Shown one piece after another: positions 2,187 through 13,542 of a stretch of 20,194 nt of DNA (the first letter of the stretch is position 1; each line of letters opens with the position of its first letter). This stretch comes from a virus. The stretch is from the IMG/VR virus record IMGVR_UViG_3300030090_001713, positions 1 through 20,194 of that record. One strand, given 5' to 3'. Position numbers and translations under genes: made by a program. A model generated the notes under the pieces. It was not told the DNA's origin. It saw nothing but the letters and a program-made list of their open reading frames with translations, and did not search any database.

Positions 2187-3593
2187 CTAAGGCCGATACA
2201 AGTCTGCTTGTTCTTTTTGCTCCTCTTCCGCCTGCGACGTTGGCAAACTTCCTGAGTCTGTTTCTGGTAATATTAACTCTCCTTCTTCATCTAAATCTAC
2301 TGTAATTCCTACACCCTGGAACGCTGCAATAACATCAGCTTTAGTTCTTAGGTTAGCTAAGTGTTGTTGTTCATTACGTTCGTCAATGTCGTTGAATACA
2401 ATTTCCCAATCCGTAATCTTAAGAATATCTAATAACGGTTGAAAGAATCCTTTAACTAAAACATTCTGTGTTTCTGTTATTGTCCTGTCCATCATAGACA
2501 ACTGCTCGCCTTCTGCATTCAATCCACCTACTCCAGATACGTCTCCAACTGCTAATGGCATAACTCCATAAGCTGAGTTAATATCTTGATTTATTTTATC
2601 CATATATGGGATCATACCTGCCTCTCCTTGACTTGGCATGATTGTAACAAACTTAGCTCCAGATTGTCCTTCACCAGAAGATATGATCGGCACAAAATTA
2701 GGATTTCTTCTTGTTTCTTCTGCAATGTATTCTCCCAATCTGTTCAATGCCGTTTCATCTAGGTTAGGAATATCTAAGAATCCTTTTGGCGGTCTTTCTA
2801 ATCTAAACAATTTGTTCTGATAATTTTCTATTGCTAATGCAGTTTCTATTTTTTTACTTAATCCTATAATTGGTGATTCTCCATACAACCTAGCTGTAGA
2901 ACTGTATTTGTTAAAGTGTATAATCTCATCTCTTGCAAACGGAATGTCTCCTTCATTATCTTCAAATGTGTATGCTATAGGAACTAATTTAGAACCACAC
3001 TTTGGATCTGAGCAAGCTGTACCGCTCATTGCCTTTCGACAAGTTGGACAAAACTTATCATCTGTTTGAAACTTACCAAACCTGTCTGTATTGTATCTCA
3101 TCTGTTTAGAATCTTCAACCCATATTTGAGATACTTGCTTTCCTAGAATATTACCTGATTCATCTTTTACATAATCATAAACTATAGATGCCCAGGCATC
3201 GTCAAACACTTCAAGCTGTCTTATCAGTGCTTTACAAAACTCTTCACCAGTAATATCGCTGTCTCCATTGCTTGGGTCTTTCAATATCTTTTCTAAAATT
3301 GTTTTTTGGTCTTCACTAGGATTCTCAACTGTCTGCTCTAACCTGTAACCTTTAGCAACTGTCTGTGATGCAATTCTATTGATCACTGTTTGCAAATGAG
3401 AATAATTTGTTGCAAGATCTTCTAAGTGATGTAAATTGTAAATTGGATCTATACGCATTGGCCCTGAGCTGCCCATAGCAGGAGCCATATCGTAAACGGG
3501 TGTCCTGGCTTCCTTCTCTAAATTACCATCTAAGAATGTTTGTAAATTAGATGTTTGTTTGGGCTTGCTCCTAAATCTGTCTAAAAATCCCAT
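2187..3593 (-). CDS. Portal protein with internal zinc-finger insert
   Basis: 468 residues, a usual length for HK97-type portals, the dodecameric channel at the capsid vertex through which DNA enters. Supporting features are the early helix HLQTVINRIASQTVAKGYRLE, the EIIHFNKYSSTARLYGESPI block (residues about 224-243), the FRLERPPKGFLDIPN region and the late segment DINSAYGVMPLAVGDVSGVGGLNAEGEQLSMMDRT, a typical portal signature. Unusually, residues 182-199 carry CPTC and CSDPKC, a four-cysteine knuckle inserted just before the GDIPFARDEIIHFNK block. The start overlaps nothing but lies only 1 base after the stop of the ribbon-helix-helix gene. The C-terminal tail is E/Q-rich. It overlaps an open stretch in the Mu F frame. 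Confidence 0.9.
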   Translation of the reverse strand: MGFLDRFRSKPKQTSNLQTFLDGNLEKEARTPVYDMAPAMGSSGPMRIDPIYNLHHLEDLATNYSHLQTVINRIASQTVAKGYRLEQTVENPSEDQKTILEKILKDPSNGDSDITGEEFCKALIRQLEVFDDAWASIVYDYVKDESGNILGKQVSQIWVEDSKQMRYNTDRFGKFQTDDKFCPTCRKAMSGTACSDPKCGSKLVPIAYTFEDNEGDIPFARDEIIHFNKYSSTARLYGESPIIGLSKKIETALAIENYQNKLFRLERPPKGFLDIPNLDETALNRLGEYIAEETRRNPNFVPIISSGEGQSGAKFVTIMPSQGEAGMIPYMDKINQDINSAYGVMPLAVGDVSGVGGLNAEGEQLSMMDRTITETQNVLVKGFFQPLLDILKITDWEIVFNDIDERNEQQHLANLRTKADVIAAFQGVGITVDLDEEGELILPETDSGSLPTSQAEEEQKEQADLYRP

Positions 3594-3594
3594 A

Positions 3595-3774
3595 CTACCA
3601 GTCTGGGTCAGACCTCTTAGCTCTAATAAGCCTTTCTCTATTATCGGCTTGATATATGTAACTTTTAATCGCAGGCTCTAAGAATTTAGCGACAGTGACT
3701 CCATGCGTTTTAGCTAATACTTTAACATCTTCTCTGATTCGGTTGTCAATGCCTTTTAATTCGAGACGAGCCAT
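3595..3774 (-). CDS. Small ribbon-helix-helix DNA-binding protein
   Basis: Hand-read 59-residue ORF, MARLELKGIDNRIREDVKVL..., filling the gap upstream of the portal gene. A short beta-strand (ARLELKGI) is followed by two helices (NRIREDVKVLAKTHG and TVAKFLEPAIKSYIYQ), the layout of Arc/MetJ/CopG-type ribbon-helix-helix repressors. The C-terminus is basic (RERLIRAKR). Its start overlaps the stop of a 24-residue ORF (TAATG), and its stop lies one base before the portal start. As the first substantial gene after the promoter at about 3877 it is a good candidate for autoregulating the head operon. No homologue is named. Confidence 0.72.
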   Translation of the reverse strand: MARLELKGIDNRIREDVKVLAKTHGVTVAKFLEPAIKSYIYQADNRERLIRAKRSDPDW

Positions 3775-4361: not shown

Positions 4362-4516
4362 CTTTGCTCCTTTACTTGAGCCATTGTATGTTTAGCATTT
4401 ACATAGCTCATTGCTTTATTGAGTGTCTTCCAAGCTTCCCACAAATCTTTTTCTGTATCTAAACGATCTGCTAGACTAATTATATCGTCTGCTATGCTAT
4501 CACTTGTTTTATTCAT
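4358..4516 (-). CDS. 52-residue helical hypothetical protein
   Basis: Hand-read ORF MNKTSDSIADDIISLADRLD then a helix DLWEAWKTLNKAMSYVNAKH. It has no cysteines or membrane segment and is predicted mostly alpha-helical. Its start overlaps the stop of the zinc protein before it by 8 bases, and its stop overlaps the next start (ATGA). Unrecognised; the coupled position is the main evidence. Confidence 0.55.
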   Translation of the reverse strand: MNKTSDSIADDIISLADRLDTEKDLWEAWKTLNKAMSYVNAKHTMAQVKEQR

Positions 4517-4664
4517 CTATCTTAAACTCCTTGTGACAATCTAAGCAAAGTATTACATTTGATCGCTCAGAAAGATAATCATCTGTAAGATCGTAATTAA
4601 CTGCCTCACAGTGTGGGCAGAATGCGTAGTACGCTTCGTATTCTATTTTAGGTGATGATTTCAT
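4509..4664 (-). CDS. 51-residue zinc-ribbon protein
   Basis: Hand-read ORF MKSSPKIEYEAYYAFCPHCE... with CPHC at residues 16-19 and CLDC at 40-43, a classic zinc ribbon with beta-strand-rich flanks. I chose the ATG at 4664 over the in-frame ATG at 4670 because GGGAG lies 8 bases upstream of the former and only 2 of the latter, and because it forms the TAATG junction seen elsewhere in the window. Function unknown. Confidence 0.68.
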   Translation of the reverse strand: MKSSPKIEYEAYYAFCPHCEAVNYDLTDDYLSERSNVILCLDCHKEFKIDE

Positions 4665-4876
4665 TACCATTTCTCCCTGACGTAAACTCCCCAGCGGTTT
4701 CCTGGTAGTCTTGCAATTCTTGCAAATCTGCCTTCTAATCTGTTGAAGTATGCTTCGGTTTTAGCCAAATGTTTTTCTGTAAAATCATTGGTATAGTGGT
4801 AGACCATGTGGTCAAATTCCATCCAGTCGTATCTGGAGTCGTAGTCAGGTTCAGTTGTTGAGTTATCTTTGCTCAT
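4664..4876 (-). CDS. 70-residue hypothetical protein, leaderless start
   Basis: I start this gene at ATG 4876 (MSKDNSTTEPDYDSRYDWME) rather than the TTG at 4930: a TATA box (CTTATATA, 4905-4898) is centred 25.5 bases upstream of the 4876 ATG, the spacing for a leaderless archaeal mRNA, and the TTG extension would run through that TATA box. The protein is acidic at the front, then has a helix (DFTEKHLAKTEAYFNRLEGRFARIARL) and ends NRWGVYVREKW. The end is faintly like that of the 191-residue coiled-coil protein at 9054 (NDWGFWLKERRVI). It is the first gene of a unit that runs to 3888. Function unknown. Confidence 0.62.
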   Translation of the reverse strand: MSKDNSTTEPDYDSRYDWMEFDHMVYHYTNDFTEKHLAKTEAYFNRLEGRFARIARLPGNRWGVYVREKW

Positions 4877-4894
4877 ACTATAGTATTTGTGGTA

Positions 4895-4907
4895 GCATAT
4901 ATAAGCT
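4895..4907 (-). promoter_or_regulatory. TATA box, leaderless promoter of the 4876 unit
   Basis: Minus strand AAGCTTATATATGC, the same 14 bases as the plus-strand promoter at 11970-11983. Its centre is 25.5 bases from the ATG at 4876, so transcription should begin at or next to the start codon. Confidence 0.65.
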
Positions 4908-4975
4908 TTTACTTTGGAAGTTAAGCACAAATCTTACGATCGCCTAGAAATTTAGCTCTAAAAATAATTCCGAAA

Positions 4976-4986
4976 GCATATATAAT
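4976..4986 (-). promoter_or_regulatory. Possible second TATA box
   Basis: Minus strand AATTATATATGC, overlapping the stop of the small membrane-protein gene. A transcript from here would start near 4955, 25 bases before the TTG at 4930, so it could make a longer form of the next protein. It shares TATATATGC with the box at 4900. Confidence 0.35.
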
Positions 4987-5087
4987 TACAACCTTTTTAG
5001 AGTTGCAAGCGAGTATAATGCCCAAGCTACCATTGTAATTAAAACTGCCATTAAAAATCCTGTAATTATTTCAAGAACGATTTCCAA
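4986..5087 (-). CDS. 33-residue single-span membrane microprotein (TTG start)
   Basis: Hand-read ORF MEIVLEIITGFLMAVLITMV then AWALYSLATLKRL. Nearly the whole chain is one hydrophobic helix ending in a basic tail, so it should insert in the membrane with the C-terminus inside. The TTG start has GGAG 6 bases upstream and overlaps the end of the preceding zinc-ribbon gene. Tiny membrane proteins in viruses may act in lysis, exclusion or entry; none can be assigned here. Confidence 0.5.
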   Translation of the reverse strand: MEIVLEIITGFLMAVLITMVAWALYSLATLKRL

Positions 5088-5262
5088 CCATATCTCCTAC
5101 TATCGGTGTATAGATAGATTCTATTTTGCATTTGTAGCAATCAACCACAGGTCTGCCTTCTTTCTTATGATCTGCGCTAAACATAAAATGATGTTTCTCC
5201 AGGTGGCGATGTTCTTCTTCCCAACGCTCTCCACAAACAAAGCAATCAAATCTCCACCTCAT
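5071..5262 (-). CDS. 63-residue zinc-ribbon protein
   Basis: MRWRFDCFVCGERWEEEHRH begins with CFVC at residues 7-10, with CYKC at 42-45. Between them lies a His-rich segment (EEEHRHLEKHHF) that could add metal ligands. Its start overlaps the stop of the 45-residue zinc gene (ATGA). Function unknown. It is the third of three consecutive zinc proteins downstream of the promoter at about 5604. Confidence 0.72.
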   Translation of the reverse strand: MRWRFDCFVCGERWEEEHRHLEKHHFMFSADHKKEGRPVVDCYKCKIESIYTPIVGDMVGNRS

Positions 5263-5396
5263 TTAATTAACTCCAGACATTTCTTGCAATTAACAAAACT
5301 AATATGCCTATGTTTCATGATTCTGTATTCCTGTTTTGTGCAGCTATATCCACAGAGTGTTGTTTGTTCACTGTATCCTGCCTTGTGACGCTTCAT
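5259..5396 (-). CDS. 45-residue zinc-binding microprotein
   Basis: Hand-read ORF MKRHKAGYSEQTTLCGYSCT... with CGYSC at residues 15-19 and CKKC at 37-40 (FVNCKKCLELIK). The spacing of the first pair is CxxxC, not CxxC. It is basic, with several histidines (KHRHISF). It begins in the stop of the previous gene (TGATG) and ends in the start of the next (ATGA), filling the gap between them. Confidence 0.62.
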   Translation of the reverse strand: MKRHKAGYSEQTTLCGYSCTKQEYRIMKHRHISFVNCKKCLELIK

Positions 5397-5581
5397 CAAT
5401 CTATCGTAATAACTGACCCTTGAAAACAGTTGTTGATGTCAGACACTCCATATTTTAGTTTGTTATAACAATGTTTGCAACGCTCTTTATCGTCACCCAT
5501 ATTGCTATGTTTTCCTATTGGGTCGTTACATTCTATGCAAGCTTTCCATTCGTCTTTTGTTAAAGTATTCCCTTTATTCAT
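5396..5581 (-). CDS. 61-residue zinc-ribbon protein
   Basis: MNKGNTLTKDEWKACIECND has CIEC at residues 15-18 and CKHC at 35-38, separated by a segment with one His (GKHSNMGDDKER). A zinc ribbon of unknown partner. It is the first gene of a unit with a TATA box (minus TTATATAA at 5607-5600) centred 22.5 bases upstream of the ATG, slightly short for a leaderless start; the box sits within an inverted repeat. Confidence 0.7.
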   Translation of the reverse strand: MNKGNTLTKDEWKACIECNDPIGKHSNMGDDKERCKHCYNKLKYGVSDINNCFQGSVITID

Positions 5582-7081: not shown

Positions 7082-7215
7082 TTGTCAACGTGTTCCTCAT
7101 TTATATTAACTGTAAAGTATTTAGGTTTGCGATTGTACAAATAATCTGCTAGCTCATGTATGTTGTCTGTTTCAATAATTACTTTACCTGTTTCGCTATC
7201 GCAAATTCTAAACAC
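7060..7215 (-). CDS. 51-residue hypothetical protein between C5-MTase and terminase
   Basis: Hand-read ORF from GTG 7215 (MFRICDSETGKVIIETDNIH...). GGAG lies 7 bases upstream, the start overlaps the methyltransferase stop, and the end overlaps the terminase start by 22 bases, so it fills the gap completely. The fold looks beta-hairpin then helix (GKVIIETDNIHELADYLYNR, then PKYFTVNINEEHVDKW). No family recognised. Confidence 0.55.
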   Translation of the reverse strand: MFRICDSETGKVIIETDNIHELADYLYNRKPKYFTVNINEEHVDKWRKSRI

Positions 7216-8377
7216 TTTCAATCTCCATAATCATTTCTCCGATTTGTTTTGCGACCTGGGGGACAACTGCGTTTCCAAGTGCTTTAAGTCTGTCCACCCT
7301 ATTGGGAATCCCATGAGCCACTCTACCCACGTCGGGTTCAACGCTCCACTGGTCTTCGATACCGACTGTGAAAGCATTATCTGTTTGCCTTTCTCCATAC
7401 GTCTCTGAACAGCTCCACTTCCTAGATGTCCCCTGTCTCTGTTGTCCGAGGCGTTTGGAGTTGGCCACATTCTTTTGTGAACCTCTGCTGTTAATGTTGG
7501 AGTCTTTCGTTTGAACTCTGCTGGATACCCTGCTTCCTTTGCTATGTGTGCTGTCGGTGTCGGCCACTGCATCACTCTTCCTGCTAACCTTACTTGTTGA
7601 TTTTTGCTGTCCGCTCGATCTGCTGCTCCTTTGGAAAGGTGACGATGATCCTTCTCTGTCGGTGTTGGCCATTTTGTTGGATTGTCTCTTACTGCTTGAT
7701 TGATTGTGTATTGTGCGTGATGACCGCTTGGTCTTTTCCTTTTCCAATTTGGTTGTGTCCCCCTGTTCCCCATGTTTGCATCTGGTGTTGGCCATTTTTG
7801 AATGTACTCTGTTTGAGTTTCCCCTGTCTTTTTCCAGGGTGCATCGCTTCCCCCTTCCAACCCATTTGTCGTTGGAGTTGGTAATCCTTTTTGCAACAAT
7901 GAAGATTCTTTCCCTTTTATGCGGCGCACCAACGCCACCCTGTCCTCCTGCTGGAAACACATTCCAGACCGCATCATACCCGCTCTCGGCCAAGTCCCTG
8001 AGAACTTCTGCAAATGCCCTTCCAGAGTTTGCTGATAACAACCCTGTGACGTTTTCAGCCACAACCCATCTTGGTTTAACTTGGCGAATGATTCGTGCAA
8101 ATTCTCCCCAGAGCCATCTTTCATCAGAGGTTCCACCACGTTTTCCTGCAAGGGAGACTGGTTGGCAGGGGAAACCCCCACAGATAAGATCGACTGGCTC
8201 AAGTTCTTTTCCGTCGATCGTGTAGATGTCTCCGTAGATTTCTGCTTCGGGCCATTGGTGTTTGAGGATTTGACTGCCAAACTTATCTACCTCAACCATC
8301 CAGGAACATTCCATTCCTGCCATTTCAAGGCCCAAATCCAATCCTCCAATACCTGAGAATAAACTACCAAATCTCAC
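7208..8377 (-). CDS. C5-cytosine DNA methyltransferase with disordered central region
   Basis: 389 residues from GTG 8377, which forms GTGA with the stop of the small terminase gene and has GGAG 5 bases upstream; this is better than the TTG at 8404. It should methylate C5 of cytosine in viral DNA. Motif I is FGSLFSGIGG (3-12), motif IV GGFPCQP with catalytic Cys71, motif VI AENV (107-110), motif VIII HKRERIFIVA (153-162) and motif X GNAVVPQVA (368-376). The stretch from about 165 to 340, where the target-recognition domain should be, is S/R/K/N/D/Q-rich with MANT at 195 and 236, VADT at 271 and VANS at 304, and looks unfolded. The same DNA is open in another frame for 349 codons. G+C is about one half near motif IV-VI, higher than its neighbours, suggesting transfer. 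Confidence 0.88.
   Translation of the reverse strand: MRFGSLFSGIGGLDLGLEMAGMECSWMVEVDKFGSQILKHQWPEAEIYGDIYTIDGKELEPVDLICGGFPCQPVSLAGKRGGTSDERWLWGEFARIIRQVKPRWVVAENVTGLLSANSGRAFAEVLRDLAESGYDAVWNVFPAGGQGGVGAPHKRERIFIVAKRITNSNDKWVGRGKRCTLEKDRGNSNRVHSKMANTRCKHGEQGDTTKLEKEKTKRSSRTIHNQSSSKRQSNKMANTDREGSSSPFQRSSRSSGQQKSTSKVSRKSDAVADTDSTHSKGSRVSSRVQTKDSNINSRGSQKNVANSKRLGQQRQGTSRKWSCSETYGERQTDNAFTVGIEDQWSVEPDVGRVAHGIPNRVDRLKALGNAVVPQVAKQIGEMIMEIESV
7231..8280 (-). CDS. Overlapping alternate-frame protein with WPTP repeats and WVEWLMGFP tail
   Basis: 349 residues on the same strand as the C5 methyltransferase in another frame, wholly inside it. It starts at TTG 8280 with GAGGT 8 bases upstream; a later ATG at 8124 (MKDGSGENLHESFAKLNQDG) is also possible. 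It reads TWPRAGMMRSGM, then WPTP four times (7794, 7671, 7566 and 7467, 33-41 residues apart) plus LPTPTTNG near 7880, and ends LNPTWVEWLMGFPIGWTDLK. I recall database proteins with this pattern beside phage C5 methyltransferases. In the central region a hand count of about 45 codons gives more A/T at third positions in this frame (about 62%) than in the methyltransferase frame (about 52%), as an A+T-rich genome predicts for the true frame. No function known. It could be a conserved shadow rather than a protein. Confidence 0.5.
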   Translation of the reverse strand: MAVKSSNTNGPKQKSTETSTRSTEKNLSQSILSVGVSPANQSPLQENVVEPLMKDGSGENLHESFAKLNQDGLWLKTSQGCYQQTLEGHLQKFSGTWPRAGMMRSGMCFQQEDRVALVRRIKGKESSLLQKGLPTPTTNGLEGGSDAPWKKTGETQTEYIQKWPTPDANMGNRGTQPNWKRKRPSGHHAQYTINQAVRDNPTKWPTPTEKDHRHLSKGAADRADSKNQQVRLAGRVMQWPTPTAHIAKEAGYPAEFKRKTPTLTAEVHKRMWPTPNASDNRDRGHLGSGAVQRRMEKGKQIMLSQSVSKTSGALNPTWVEWLMGFPIGWTDLKHLETQLSPRSQNKSEK

Positions 8378-8862
8378 TCCATCTCCTGAACCATCTCTAT
8401 CCAATTCCTGATCGTAAGATTTATCTTGTCTTGGGAGATCTCCGCTTTCTTCATTGCTTCAGGCAACTTTTCAGCAATCTCTTCTATTAGTGTGTCTTTG
8501 ACATTTTTTGCTCCTTCTAACTGTAACATCATTCGTATGACATTAACCATCTCAGTTGCTCTAACTTCAAAGTGACCAGTAGCTAATTGTTCAACAAATT
8601 TGTCTTGAACTGCTTGAAGGGTACGAATATGCTTTTCTACTGTTTGGGTTGTAGAACTGTTTGTATTTGTTTGTATAATCTTACGTTGCTCATCTAATAC
8701 TTCTGCCCAGTTATTAGCTAATGACCAATCTCTTACAGTAGTATGAACTAGCTTAATGTCGTGTTGTTCTCTAAGTTTATCTGCTATTTTTTTGTAACCC
8801 ATACCTTGTAAATATAGAGATCTTGCTTCTTCTTTTAAATGATCGTTATACCTAGAAGGCAT
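8374..8862 (-). CDS. Probable terminase small subunit
   Basis: 162 residues. The N-terminal part is a helix-turn-helix: KEEARSLYLQGMGYKKIADK then HTTVRDWSLANNWAEVL, the resolvase/terminase-like DNA-recognition fold. Residues 70-160 are long helices (KHIRTLQAVQDKFVEQL, then ATEMVNVIRMMLQLEGAKN and EEIAEKLPEAMKKAE) suited to ring assembly. Small terminases bind the packaging site and deliver DNA to the large subunit. It lies in the same operon, upstream of the large terminase, with the C5 methyltransferase and a small gene between. The start overlaps the ribbon-helix-helix gene (TAATG). The call rests on domain layout and context rather than a diagnostic motif. Confidence 0.7.
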   Translation of the reverse strand: MPSRYNDHLKEEARSLYLQGMGYKKIADKLREQHDIKLVHTTVRDWSLANNWAEVLDEQRKIIQTNTNSSTTQTVEKHIRTLQAVQDKFVEQLATGHFEVRATEMVNVIRMMLQLEGAKNVKDTLIEEIAEKLPEAMKKAEISQDKINLTIRNWIEMVQEME

Positions 8863-12239: not shown

Positions 12240-12398
12240 ATGGCTAGAAAATTTAAATGGATTTACTTTACAATAGGTGGTGAAAGATACAAATGGACTT
12301 TACCTTTCTCACCAAATGAAGCTCGTGAAGACAGAGTTTGGAAAACTTTGTTTCCAGATGAACAACCAGTATTCGAAAATGATAGGTACAATAAATGA
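12240..12398 (+). CDS. 52-residue basic hypothetical protein
   Basis: Hand-read ORF MARKFKWIYFTIGGERYKWT then LPFSPNEAREDRVWKTLFPD. A beta-hairpin rich in aromatic and basic residues followed by a helix. GGTG lies 11 bases upstream, and the stop overlaps the adenine methyltransferase start (ATGA). The small fold could be a nucleic-acid binder acting with the methyltransferases, but this is inference from position only. Confidence 0.55.
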   Translation: MARKFKWIYFTIGGERYKWTLPFSPNEAREDRVWKTLFPDEQPVFENDRYNK

Positions 12399-12874
12399 AC
12401 GAGTCTACTCGTAAGACTATGTTTAGCTCGGCTACTAATGAGTGGCCTACTCCTATAGAGTTCTACAATAAGTTAGACAAGATGTATCGCTTTAGTCTTG
12501 ACCCTTGCTGTACAAAAGAGTCTGCTAAATGTCCGCATTTTTTTACTGAAGAAGATGATGGATTAGCTCAATCCTGGCAAGGTCATACTGTATTTATGAA
12601 TCCTCCATACGGTTCTGAGATTAAACATTGGGTCAAGAAAGCCTATGAAGAAAGTCAAAAGCACATGACCTTAGTTGTAGCACTTATACCTGCTAGAACA
12701 GATACACAATATTGGCATGATTACTGTATGAAAGCTTCTGAGATAATGCTTGTTAAAGGCAGATTGAAGTTTGGAGATGGAACAGGTTCTGCTCCTTTTC
12801 CGTCAGCCGTTGTAGTCTTTGGAGATAAAGCTATATTGAACCCACCAGTATTGAGTGCAATCGAAAGAACATGA
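12395..12874 (+). CDS. Phage-type DNA N6-adenine methyltransferase (Dam-like)
   Basis: 159 residues, the normal length of the phage DNA N-6-adenine-methyltransferase family (PF05869 type), which transfers a methyl group to adenine N6. The family signature is present: NEWPTPIEFYNKL at 15-27, FSLDPCCTKESAKC at 33-46, GLAQSWQGHTVFMNPPYG with the catalytic NPPY at 69-72, then ALIPARTDTQYWHDYCMKAS and KGRLKFG. It would modify viral DNA, perhaps to avoid host restriction. The target could be GATC as in related enzymes, but that is not shown by the sequence. Its stop overlaps the next methyltransferase start (ATGA), so the two are made together. Confidence 0.88.
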   Translation: MNESTRKTMFSSATNEWPTPIEFYNKLDKMYRFSLDPCCTKESAKCPHFFTEEDDGLAQSWQGHTVFMNPPYGSEIKHWVKKAYEESQKHMTLVVALIPARTDTQYWHDYCMKASEIMLVKGRLKFGDGTGSAPFPSAVVVFGDKAILNPPVLSAIERT

Positions 12875-13542
12875 ATATCTTAGAACTGTTTGGCGGATCG
12901 TGTAGCTTTAGTAATGTAGCTAAAGAAAGAGGACATAACACATTTACTTCTGATTGGAAACAATATGGCAAGATCGATTACGTTACTGATATTATGGACT
13001 TTGATGTTAACCAGGTTCCTTTTGATGTAGATTTTATCTGGGCAAGTCCGCCTTGTACTTACTTTAGCGTTGCATCTATTGGCCACCATTGGTATCCTAA
13101 CCATACTCCTAAAAGCGACAAAGCCTTAGAAGGAGTAGCGATCGTAAGAAAAACCTTAGAGATTATTGAAAAGATAAATCCACCATTAGGTTGGGTTATT
13201 GAAAATCCTAGAGGTAAGCTTAGAAAGCTTGGATTGATTAACAACGATTATCTTGATACCGTAACTTACTGTAGATATGGAGATACTAGAATGAAACCTA
13301 CAGATCTCTGGAATACAATATCTCCACCCTGGAAGCCACGCAAGATGTGTAAGAATGGCGATAGCTGTCATGTATCTGCACCTAGAGGAAGTAAAACTGG
13401 TACGCAAGGATTGAAAGGAGCGTACGAGCGATCTAAAGTTCCTAGTGAACTTTGTGATGAAATTATTAAAGTTTTAGAATCTGTCCAGTCGATCGACCAG
13501 AATTACTTTGTCAAGGAGCAAACTTCTCTTTTAGATTTCTAA
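12871..13542 (+). CDS. Short C5-type DNA methyltransferase
   Basis: 223 residues. Motif I is NILELFGGSCSFS (2-14). Motif IV is WASPPC with Cys62 as the candidate nucleophile. Motif VI is IENPRG, so the usual ENV is ENP. MKPTDLWNT at 141-149 resembles a block found in short viral cytosine methyltransferases. A cysteine pair near 160-166 (CKNGDSC) may bind metal or shape the substrate site. It is shorter than cellular C5 enzymes, with a small recognition region. It is the last gene of the rightward operon and converges on the tail module with a 4-base overlap and no visible terminator. Its target may be cytosine, but the altered motifs leave this open. Confidence 0.78.
   Translation: MNILELFGGSCSFSNVAKERGHNTFTSDWKQYGKIDYVTDIMDFDVNQVPFDVDFIWASPPCTYFSVASIGHHWYPNHTPKSDKALEGVAIVRKTLEIIEKINPPLGWVIENPRGKLRKLGLINNDYLDTVTYCRYGDTRMKPTDLWNTISPPWKPRKMCKNGDSCHVSAPRGSKTGTQGLKGAYERSKVPSELCDEIIKVLESVQSIDQNYFVKEQTSLLDF
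13485..13500. repeat. CGATCG-centred palindrome, copy in C5-type methyltransferase gene
   Basis: CCAGTCGATCGACCAG, 14 of 16 positions matching the perfect palindrome CTGGTCGATCGACCAG. Related copies lie at 3888-3903 (15 of 16) and 1049-1064 (left half and core). It is inside coding sequence here. Confidence 0.4.

Follow-up and report, generated by a model that had tools for sequence, protein, structure and literature searches.

Does a phage gene for a C5-cytosine DNA methyltransferase encode a second part of the same enzyme in another reading frame? The question is raised by a 20,194-base stretch of DNA, referred to below as the window, which is an IMG/VR phage record carrying terminase, portal and head genes. 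All coordinates of the locus are on its minus strand. The methyltransferase frame (alpha) is open from a TTG at 8404 down to 7208; its probable start is the GTG at 8377, which is preceded by AGGAG and overlaps, in GTGA, the stop codon of the gene upstream, a weak match to terminase small subunits. Within the alpha gene (7208-8377), the +1 frame (beta) is open on the same strand over 349 stop-free codons, from a TTG at 8280 to 7231. Database searches with both proteins assigned alpha to PF00145 (E=8e-55) and beta to phrog_1008 (E=6e-35), and beta is nested in this way in nearly all relatives.

A sequence-only reading of the same DNA had described this open frame inside the methyltransferase gene, and its coordinates were exact. 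Correct too were the positions of four WPTP sequences in beta (7794, 7671, 7566 and 7467), written over MANT, MANT, VADT and VANS of alpha; a further LPTP at 7884 gives beta five (W/L)PTP units. The two peptide pairs read from common bases were recovered as described, beta WVEWLMGFPIGWTD (7329-7288) over alpha VGRVAHGIPNRVDRL and beta SPANQSPLQENVV (8172-8134) over alpha FPCQPVSLAGKRGG. GAGGT is found 8 bases 5' of the putative TTG start of beta, as the reading had it, and this context is conserved: four close relatives of the window keep the TTG with GGAGGT upstream. An RBS-like sequence precedes 21% of the ATG codons in the beta frame versus 11% in frame +2.

Probable division of the enzyme between alpha and beta

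Alignment of alpha with M.HhaI covered residues 8-172 (E=2e-25) and went no further; the next motif of alpha is motif X. Alpha contains motifs I to VIII, among them motif I (LFSGIGG, 8342-8362), motif IV with the catalytic Cys (FPCQPVSLAGKRG, 8135-8173), motif VI (ENVTG, 8042-8056) and motif VIII (KRERIF, 7901-7918), together with motif X (GNAVVP, 7259-7276). Motif IX and the target-recognition domain (TRD) are absent from its frame, and its centre (7457-7880) reads as a linker rich in Ser, Lys and Arg. The N-terminal part of beta (7885-8164) runs over motifs IV to VIII of alpha and includes TWPRAGMMRSG (7995-7963). It is followed by five PTP modules and by a motif IX-like segment, LNPTWVEWLMGFPIGWTD (7288-7341), which is near-invariant in the family. 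This C-terminus of beta, LNPxWVEWLMGxPxGWTDL, directly precedes the bases of motif X, and canonical enzymes place motif IX likewise; in the single-chain relatives motif IX reads RECARLMGFP.

A natural in-frame fusion was found in the mycobacteriophage Silvy (L303), whose gp53 is one chain of 550 residues with motifs I to VIII, four LPTP units in the same frame, EWMMGWPAGW and GNGVCP; its residues 1-219 match the alpha family and its residues 391-549 the beta family. The order of motifs I to VIII, PTP units, IX and X in a single chain indicates that the PTP modules and the WLMG sequence sit at the place of the TRD and motif IX. At 2828-3344 of L303, frame 2 also contains a +1 ORF that encodes TWPTSGMTRNG and PTP units and resembles a leftover of the nested state.

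No relatives of beta were present in Pfam, NCBIfam or PDB, the search of the latter returning one chance hit, and profile-profile comparison of beta with the single-chain enzymes gave no match. The AlphaFold model of beta with 86 relatives was of low confidence (pLDDT 55, pTM 0.25); in that of the read-through alpha-beta chain of L007, taken as a proxy for the complex, the catalytic domain was good and the PTP/IX part poor. Because databases, profiles and AlphaFold gave no support, the motif IX and TRD calls draw on position, on short resemblance and on the Silvy fusion. On this basis, beta supplies the motif IX-like segment and, we infer, the TRD, and is very probably the second, DNA target-recognising subunit of the enzyme. 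The sequence-only reading had called the second protein unrelated to the methyltransferase, which is not the case, since motif IX lies on beta and Silvy has beta joined to the enzyme in one frame. Its suggestion of a dual-coded partner is supported by the nesting and by the reversal of the codon-position rates described below. It had also suggested that the second frame may be the missing TRD; the alpha frame does lack a TRD, and beta would contain it.

We consider it highly likely that the two nested genes of the locus code for a C5-cytosine DNA methyltransferase of two subunits. One message with two starts would yield both subunits, beta being initiated at an internal site in +1 relative to alpha. 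Alpha would form the AdoMet-binding and catalytic domain from motifs I to VIII, closed by motif X, with a weakly constrained linker in its middle, and beta would form a small DNA-reading domain from the PTP modules, the proposed TRD, and motif IX. In the assembled heterodimer, alpha would bind AdoMet and the flipped cytosine while beta would read the sequence, and the target sequence(s) would be set by how many PTP modules there are and of which kind. Such an enzyme would methylate the phage DNA, most likely for protection from host restriction, and the nesting would keep both halves co-inherited.

Programmed +1 frameshifting might instead join motifs I to VIII of alpha to the beta centre and give a fused enzyme, not two subunits, as motif VIII is followed directly by a PTP unit, the first one, and the fused order exists as a single chain in Silvy. 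However, the nested loci, which are the majority, keep motif X in the alpha frame, so that a second shift would be required. Furthermore, a shift at motif VIII gives no reason why the beta frame is conserved and devoid of stops well upstream of the junction, and the beta-frame ATGs are enriched in RBS-like sequences; we regard frameshifting as quite improbable. The fact that beta has no recognised relative outside its own family would suit a complete methyltransferase overprinted by an independent protein, with an anti-restriction or regulatory role for instance, but alpha of this clade is without motif IX in its own frame, the alpha and beta families form one chain in Silvy, and the second ORF of phage Kristoff and of L130, L168 and L178 also carries motif X. 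An independent overprinted gene has thus only a slim chance and was rejected, as were a chance overlap and a homing-endonuclease insertion, both considered below.

Selection on the overlapping frames

In the window, 0/300 synonymous shuffles of the alpha codons left the +1 frame open between the beta start and motif IX, and the openness of the +1 frame upstream of motif VIII had a p value of 0.01 by synonymous shuffling. A first stop-count test over many genes was partly circular because beta was defined as an open frame; it was replaced by a test of the upstream length and by a test of stops in 47 genes. Upstream of motif VIII, the +1 frame was open over 137 codons (54 genes) versus 35 in the synonymous shuffles. 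The stop and conservation tests were performed on 47 non-redundant alpha proteins of less than 60% identity. Before the beta start, the numbers of +1 stops were close to the null (46 versus 44 and 41 versus 46 expected). In the next block 4 stops were observed versus 37 expected and, from around motif VI to past motif VIII, none versus 68, 26 and 13 expected by block; overall, the +1 frame over motifs VI to VIII had 0 stops versus 108 expected. Frame +2 showed no loss of stops up to about motif VII (74 versus 69) and a mild loss beyond.

The beta residues over motifs VI to VIII, for instance T-W-P-x-x-G-M-x-R-N-G, were far more conserved than synonymous resampling permits. This excess increased from motif IV to motif VIII, and no effect was seen ahead of beta. 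Some excess over the synonymous null was also observed in frame +2, and some is expected there because both shifted frames share the third positions of alpha. If the +1 frame were only a shadow of alpha, kept open and similar by accident through the conservation and codon bias of alpha, such an excess in frame +2 would be in line with it, homologous alpha genes being necessarily somewhat alike in every frame. This explanation retains hardly any probability, since the loss of stops is restricted to frame +1, the +1 frame upstream of motif VIII is four times longer than in the synonymous shuffles, and the rate of change in the centre is highest at alpha position 1 and lowest at position 3.

The codon-position mismatch rates behind the last point were obtained from 752 pairwise alignments, alpha position 1 being beta position 3. 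At alpha positions 1/2/3, these rates, which are descriptive because the alignments are not independent, were 0.14/0.06/0.31 before beta, 0.21/0.12/0.37 over motifs I to VIII, 0.35/0.15/0.11 in the PTP centre, 0.23/0.09/0.17 over motifs IX and X, and 0.15/0.05/0.42 after beta. The reversal was present in the window's own pairs, with mismatches of 6/40, 1/40 and 0/40 against L005 and of 9/41, 1/41 and 1/41 against L006. The fact that alpha position 1 is the fastest in the centre indicates that selection acts there on beta. The rates suggest that motifs I to VIII evolve mainly as alpha, with beta as a passenger, and the centre as beta, with alpha as a passenger; the alpha linker would be dictated by beta, and its sequence seems nearly free.

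At 7450-7880, the third-position A+T content is 0.63 in the beta frame versus 0.46 in the alpha frame; the alpha frame reaches 0.57 at 7881-8280, and two other phage genes 0.72-0.73. The codon-position signature of the phage is found in the beta frame at 7450-7880 and in the alpha frame at 7881-8280. The hand count of the sequence-only reading, which had given a higher third-codon A/T in the second frame, therefore holds, and its proposal that the centre is selected mainly in that frame is borne out by the reversed rates. It had named two observations that would speak against a dual-coded centre. Selection confined there to the alpha frame is not what the rates show, position 1 being the fastest, and no homologue of the window's clade with an intact alpha and a broken beta was found among the relatives.

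A mobile insertion of the centre, with an out-of-frame homing endonuclease, has next to no chance: out-of-frame HNH genes do occur in phage methylase genes (PMC11855218), but beta gave no match to HNH or another family, this clade has no insertion-free relatives, and beta reaches far beyond the centre.

Exchange of the PTP modules

The modules of the window have close counterparts in other loci. Module 1 (LPTPTTNGLEGGSDAPWKKTGETQTEYIQK, 7795-7884) is identical in L005, in which module 3 (WPTPTEKDHRHLSKGAADRADSK..., 7567-7671) is 97% identical. Module 2 (WPTPDANMGNRGTQPNWK..., 7672-7794) is 81% identical to modules of L031, L034 and L039, the alpha proteins of which are 43-48% identical to that of the window. 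Module 4 (WPTPTAHIAKEAGYPAEFKRKTPTL..., 7468-7566) is 82% identical in L029 (alpha 42% identical), and module 5, the last one (WPTPNASDNRDRGHLGSGAVQRRMEKGK..., 7348-7467), is 88% identical in L029 and 85% in L035, with alpha only 41-42% identical. Among 242 alpha/beta pairs, beta carries 0 to 6 modules, mostly 2 or 3, with a median length of 37 residues. The four closest relatives of the window have alpha catalytic parts that are 90-94% identical, yet they contain 2 to 4 modules, partly or wholly different. Moreover, 245 pairs of modules that are 70% identical or more link enzymes whose alpha proteins are less than 50% identical. The PTP modules show the pattern of exchangeable target-recognition units, and we infer from it that each may read its own target. 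The multispecific C5 methyltransferases of Bacillus phages are single chains with tandem, exchangeable TRDs of about 40 residues. Their TRD units would work as the PTP modules would, with the difference that the modules of the window, coded out of frame, have (W/L)PTP at their start.

Spread of the nested pair and related enzymes

A tblastn search with beta retrieved 87 phage records. Beta was nested in +1 in every complete phage, plasmid or viral locus examined except those of two actinophages (L018, L020), and in 71 of the 80 bacterial and archaeal loci; in nearly all loci the WPTP protein is thus encoded within a methyltransferase gene, a point that the earlier reading had asked to be tested. 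Three of the nine remaining bacterial and archaeal loci (L130, L168, L178) have a short alpha with motifs IX and X on a second ORF, and in the other six alpha is interrupted, truncated or undetected, the arrangement being the same. In L166, L167, L174 and L186, beta is open and alpha is broken by a stop or a frameshift, through decay or assembly error. For a sample independent of beta, 80 viral loci were fetched with no criterion other than alpha motifs I and IV. In 78 of them the +1 frame contained motif IX; because the loci are the nearest hits to the window alpha, this figure holds for the clade rather than for C5 enzymes in general. The other two were contigs ending soon after motif VIII. 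Single-chain C5 enzymes encoded in the same genomes as 12 of these loci showed no +1 motif IX.

An unrooted tree of the catalytic part was built with 84 rows, including 16 single-chain enzymes. The genes with a +1 beta and their rearranged variants were split from the 16 single-chain enzymes by one branch with a support of 93/97, slightly below the customary 95 mark. Rearranged loci are seen in phages Kristoff, NiebruSaylor and Jamun, with a short alpha and a second ORF holding the modules, IX and X, and in Rhodococcus phage ReT1v-2, with the modules in +1 and both IX and X in the alpha frame. We lean towards one old C5 clade, distributed over viruses, bacteria and archaea, in which the target half lies out of frame within the catalytic half, specificities change by gain, loss and swap of PTP modules, and the single chain of Silvy and the other cuts are secondary. 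If this is true, each module swap must leave both frames open. One sub-branch (L003, L021, L022, L299, L300), from phages of enterobacteria and other proteobacteria, has LNPxxSRWLMGxPxAWD at the beta end and FFAGIG as alpha motif I.

The window shares the catalytic part, motifs I to VIII and X, with single-chain C5 enzymes such as M.HhaI; it differs in having no TRD or motif IX in the frame of these motifs and in a centre without alpha-type selection. Kristoff gp77/gp76 and Silvy gp53 have the same beta family (phrog_1008) and the same PTP-IX order as the window, but beta of Kristoff also holds motif X next to a short alpha, and Silvy has one chain. Two-polypeptide enzymes are represented by M.EcoHK31I, with the target YGGCCR, and by M.EaeI. 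The small subunit of M.EcoHK31I is reportedly coded in +1 inside the large one. As outlined in a paper on M.SssI fragments (PMC3404938), which cites Lee, Kam and Shaw 1995 for the motif split, motifs I to VIII, X and the predicted TRD of M.EcoHK31I are on the large subunit and only IX is on the small one. In the window, the large subunit likewise has motifs I to VIII and X without IX, motif IX is on the second polypeptide (LNPTWVEWLMGFPIGWTD, by position and short resemblance), and the gene of the latter is nested in +1. Compared by description, the pair fits the M.EcoHK31I type by motif split and nesting. The difference concerns the TRD, which the prediction quoted in PMC3404938 puts on the large subunit, whereas the centre of the window evolves as beta with several exchangeable PTP modules. 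M.AquI (CYCGRG) is also split between motif VIII and the end of the variable region, but its small subunit has IX and X according to the same outline (PMC3404938), and motif X of the window is on alpha (7276-7259). An M.AquI-like cut is present in the relatives L130, L168, L178 and Kristoff.

The sequence-only reading knew of no published description of such a partner; M.EcoHK31I, with motif IX on its small polypeptide in the account of PMC3404938, is a precedent. Beta families named DNA methyltransferase already exist in PHROGs, and both genes are called by several phage annotators, so that some parts of the arrangement are familiar to annotators. In the limited open-access literature, we found no description of the wide spread of the nesting, of a TRD in beta or of module exchange; the extent of the nesting, the TRD in beta and the module shuffling look new. 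To our knowledge, few cases are documented of genes that overlap by about 1 kb and whose two products belong to one enzyme. The nested arrangement looks old and common; its usual annotation is a plain methyltransferase, or even a pseudogene. Such an annotation hides the half that is expected to set the specificity, and anyone predicting methylation targets from the annotated chain by itself would be working with the wrong protein. Dual-frame selection and modular target recognition could be studied on the many natural examples in the clade.

Several loci deserve mention in their own right. In L299 (E. coli Ec1117), RefSeq lists an "incomplete pseudogene" in two pieces where the alpha and beta frames are intact (2443-3655 and 2555-3584), and nested genes may be mislabelled in this manner. 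Archaeal nested pairs occur on a Methanomethylovorans plasmid (L027) and a Poseidoniaceae contig (L169). One viral contig (L105) carries two nested alpha/beta pairs (2313-3192 and 4386-5565) about 1.2 kb apart, and one Roseovarius sp. chromosome (L139-L143) carries five apparently identical pairs, possibly in repeated prophages. Finally, the window contains on its plus strand two more methyltransferase-like genes (12395-12874 and 12871-13542) with a 4-base overlap, one matching phrog_111 (DNA methyltransferase) and the second being a divergent C5-like gene (phrog_757).
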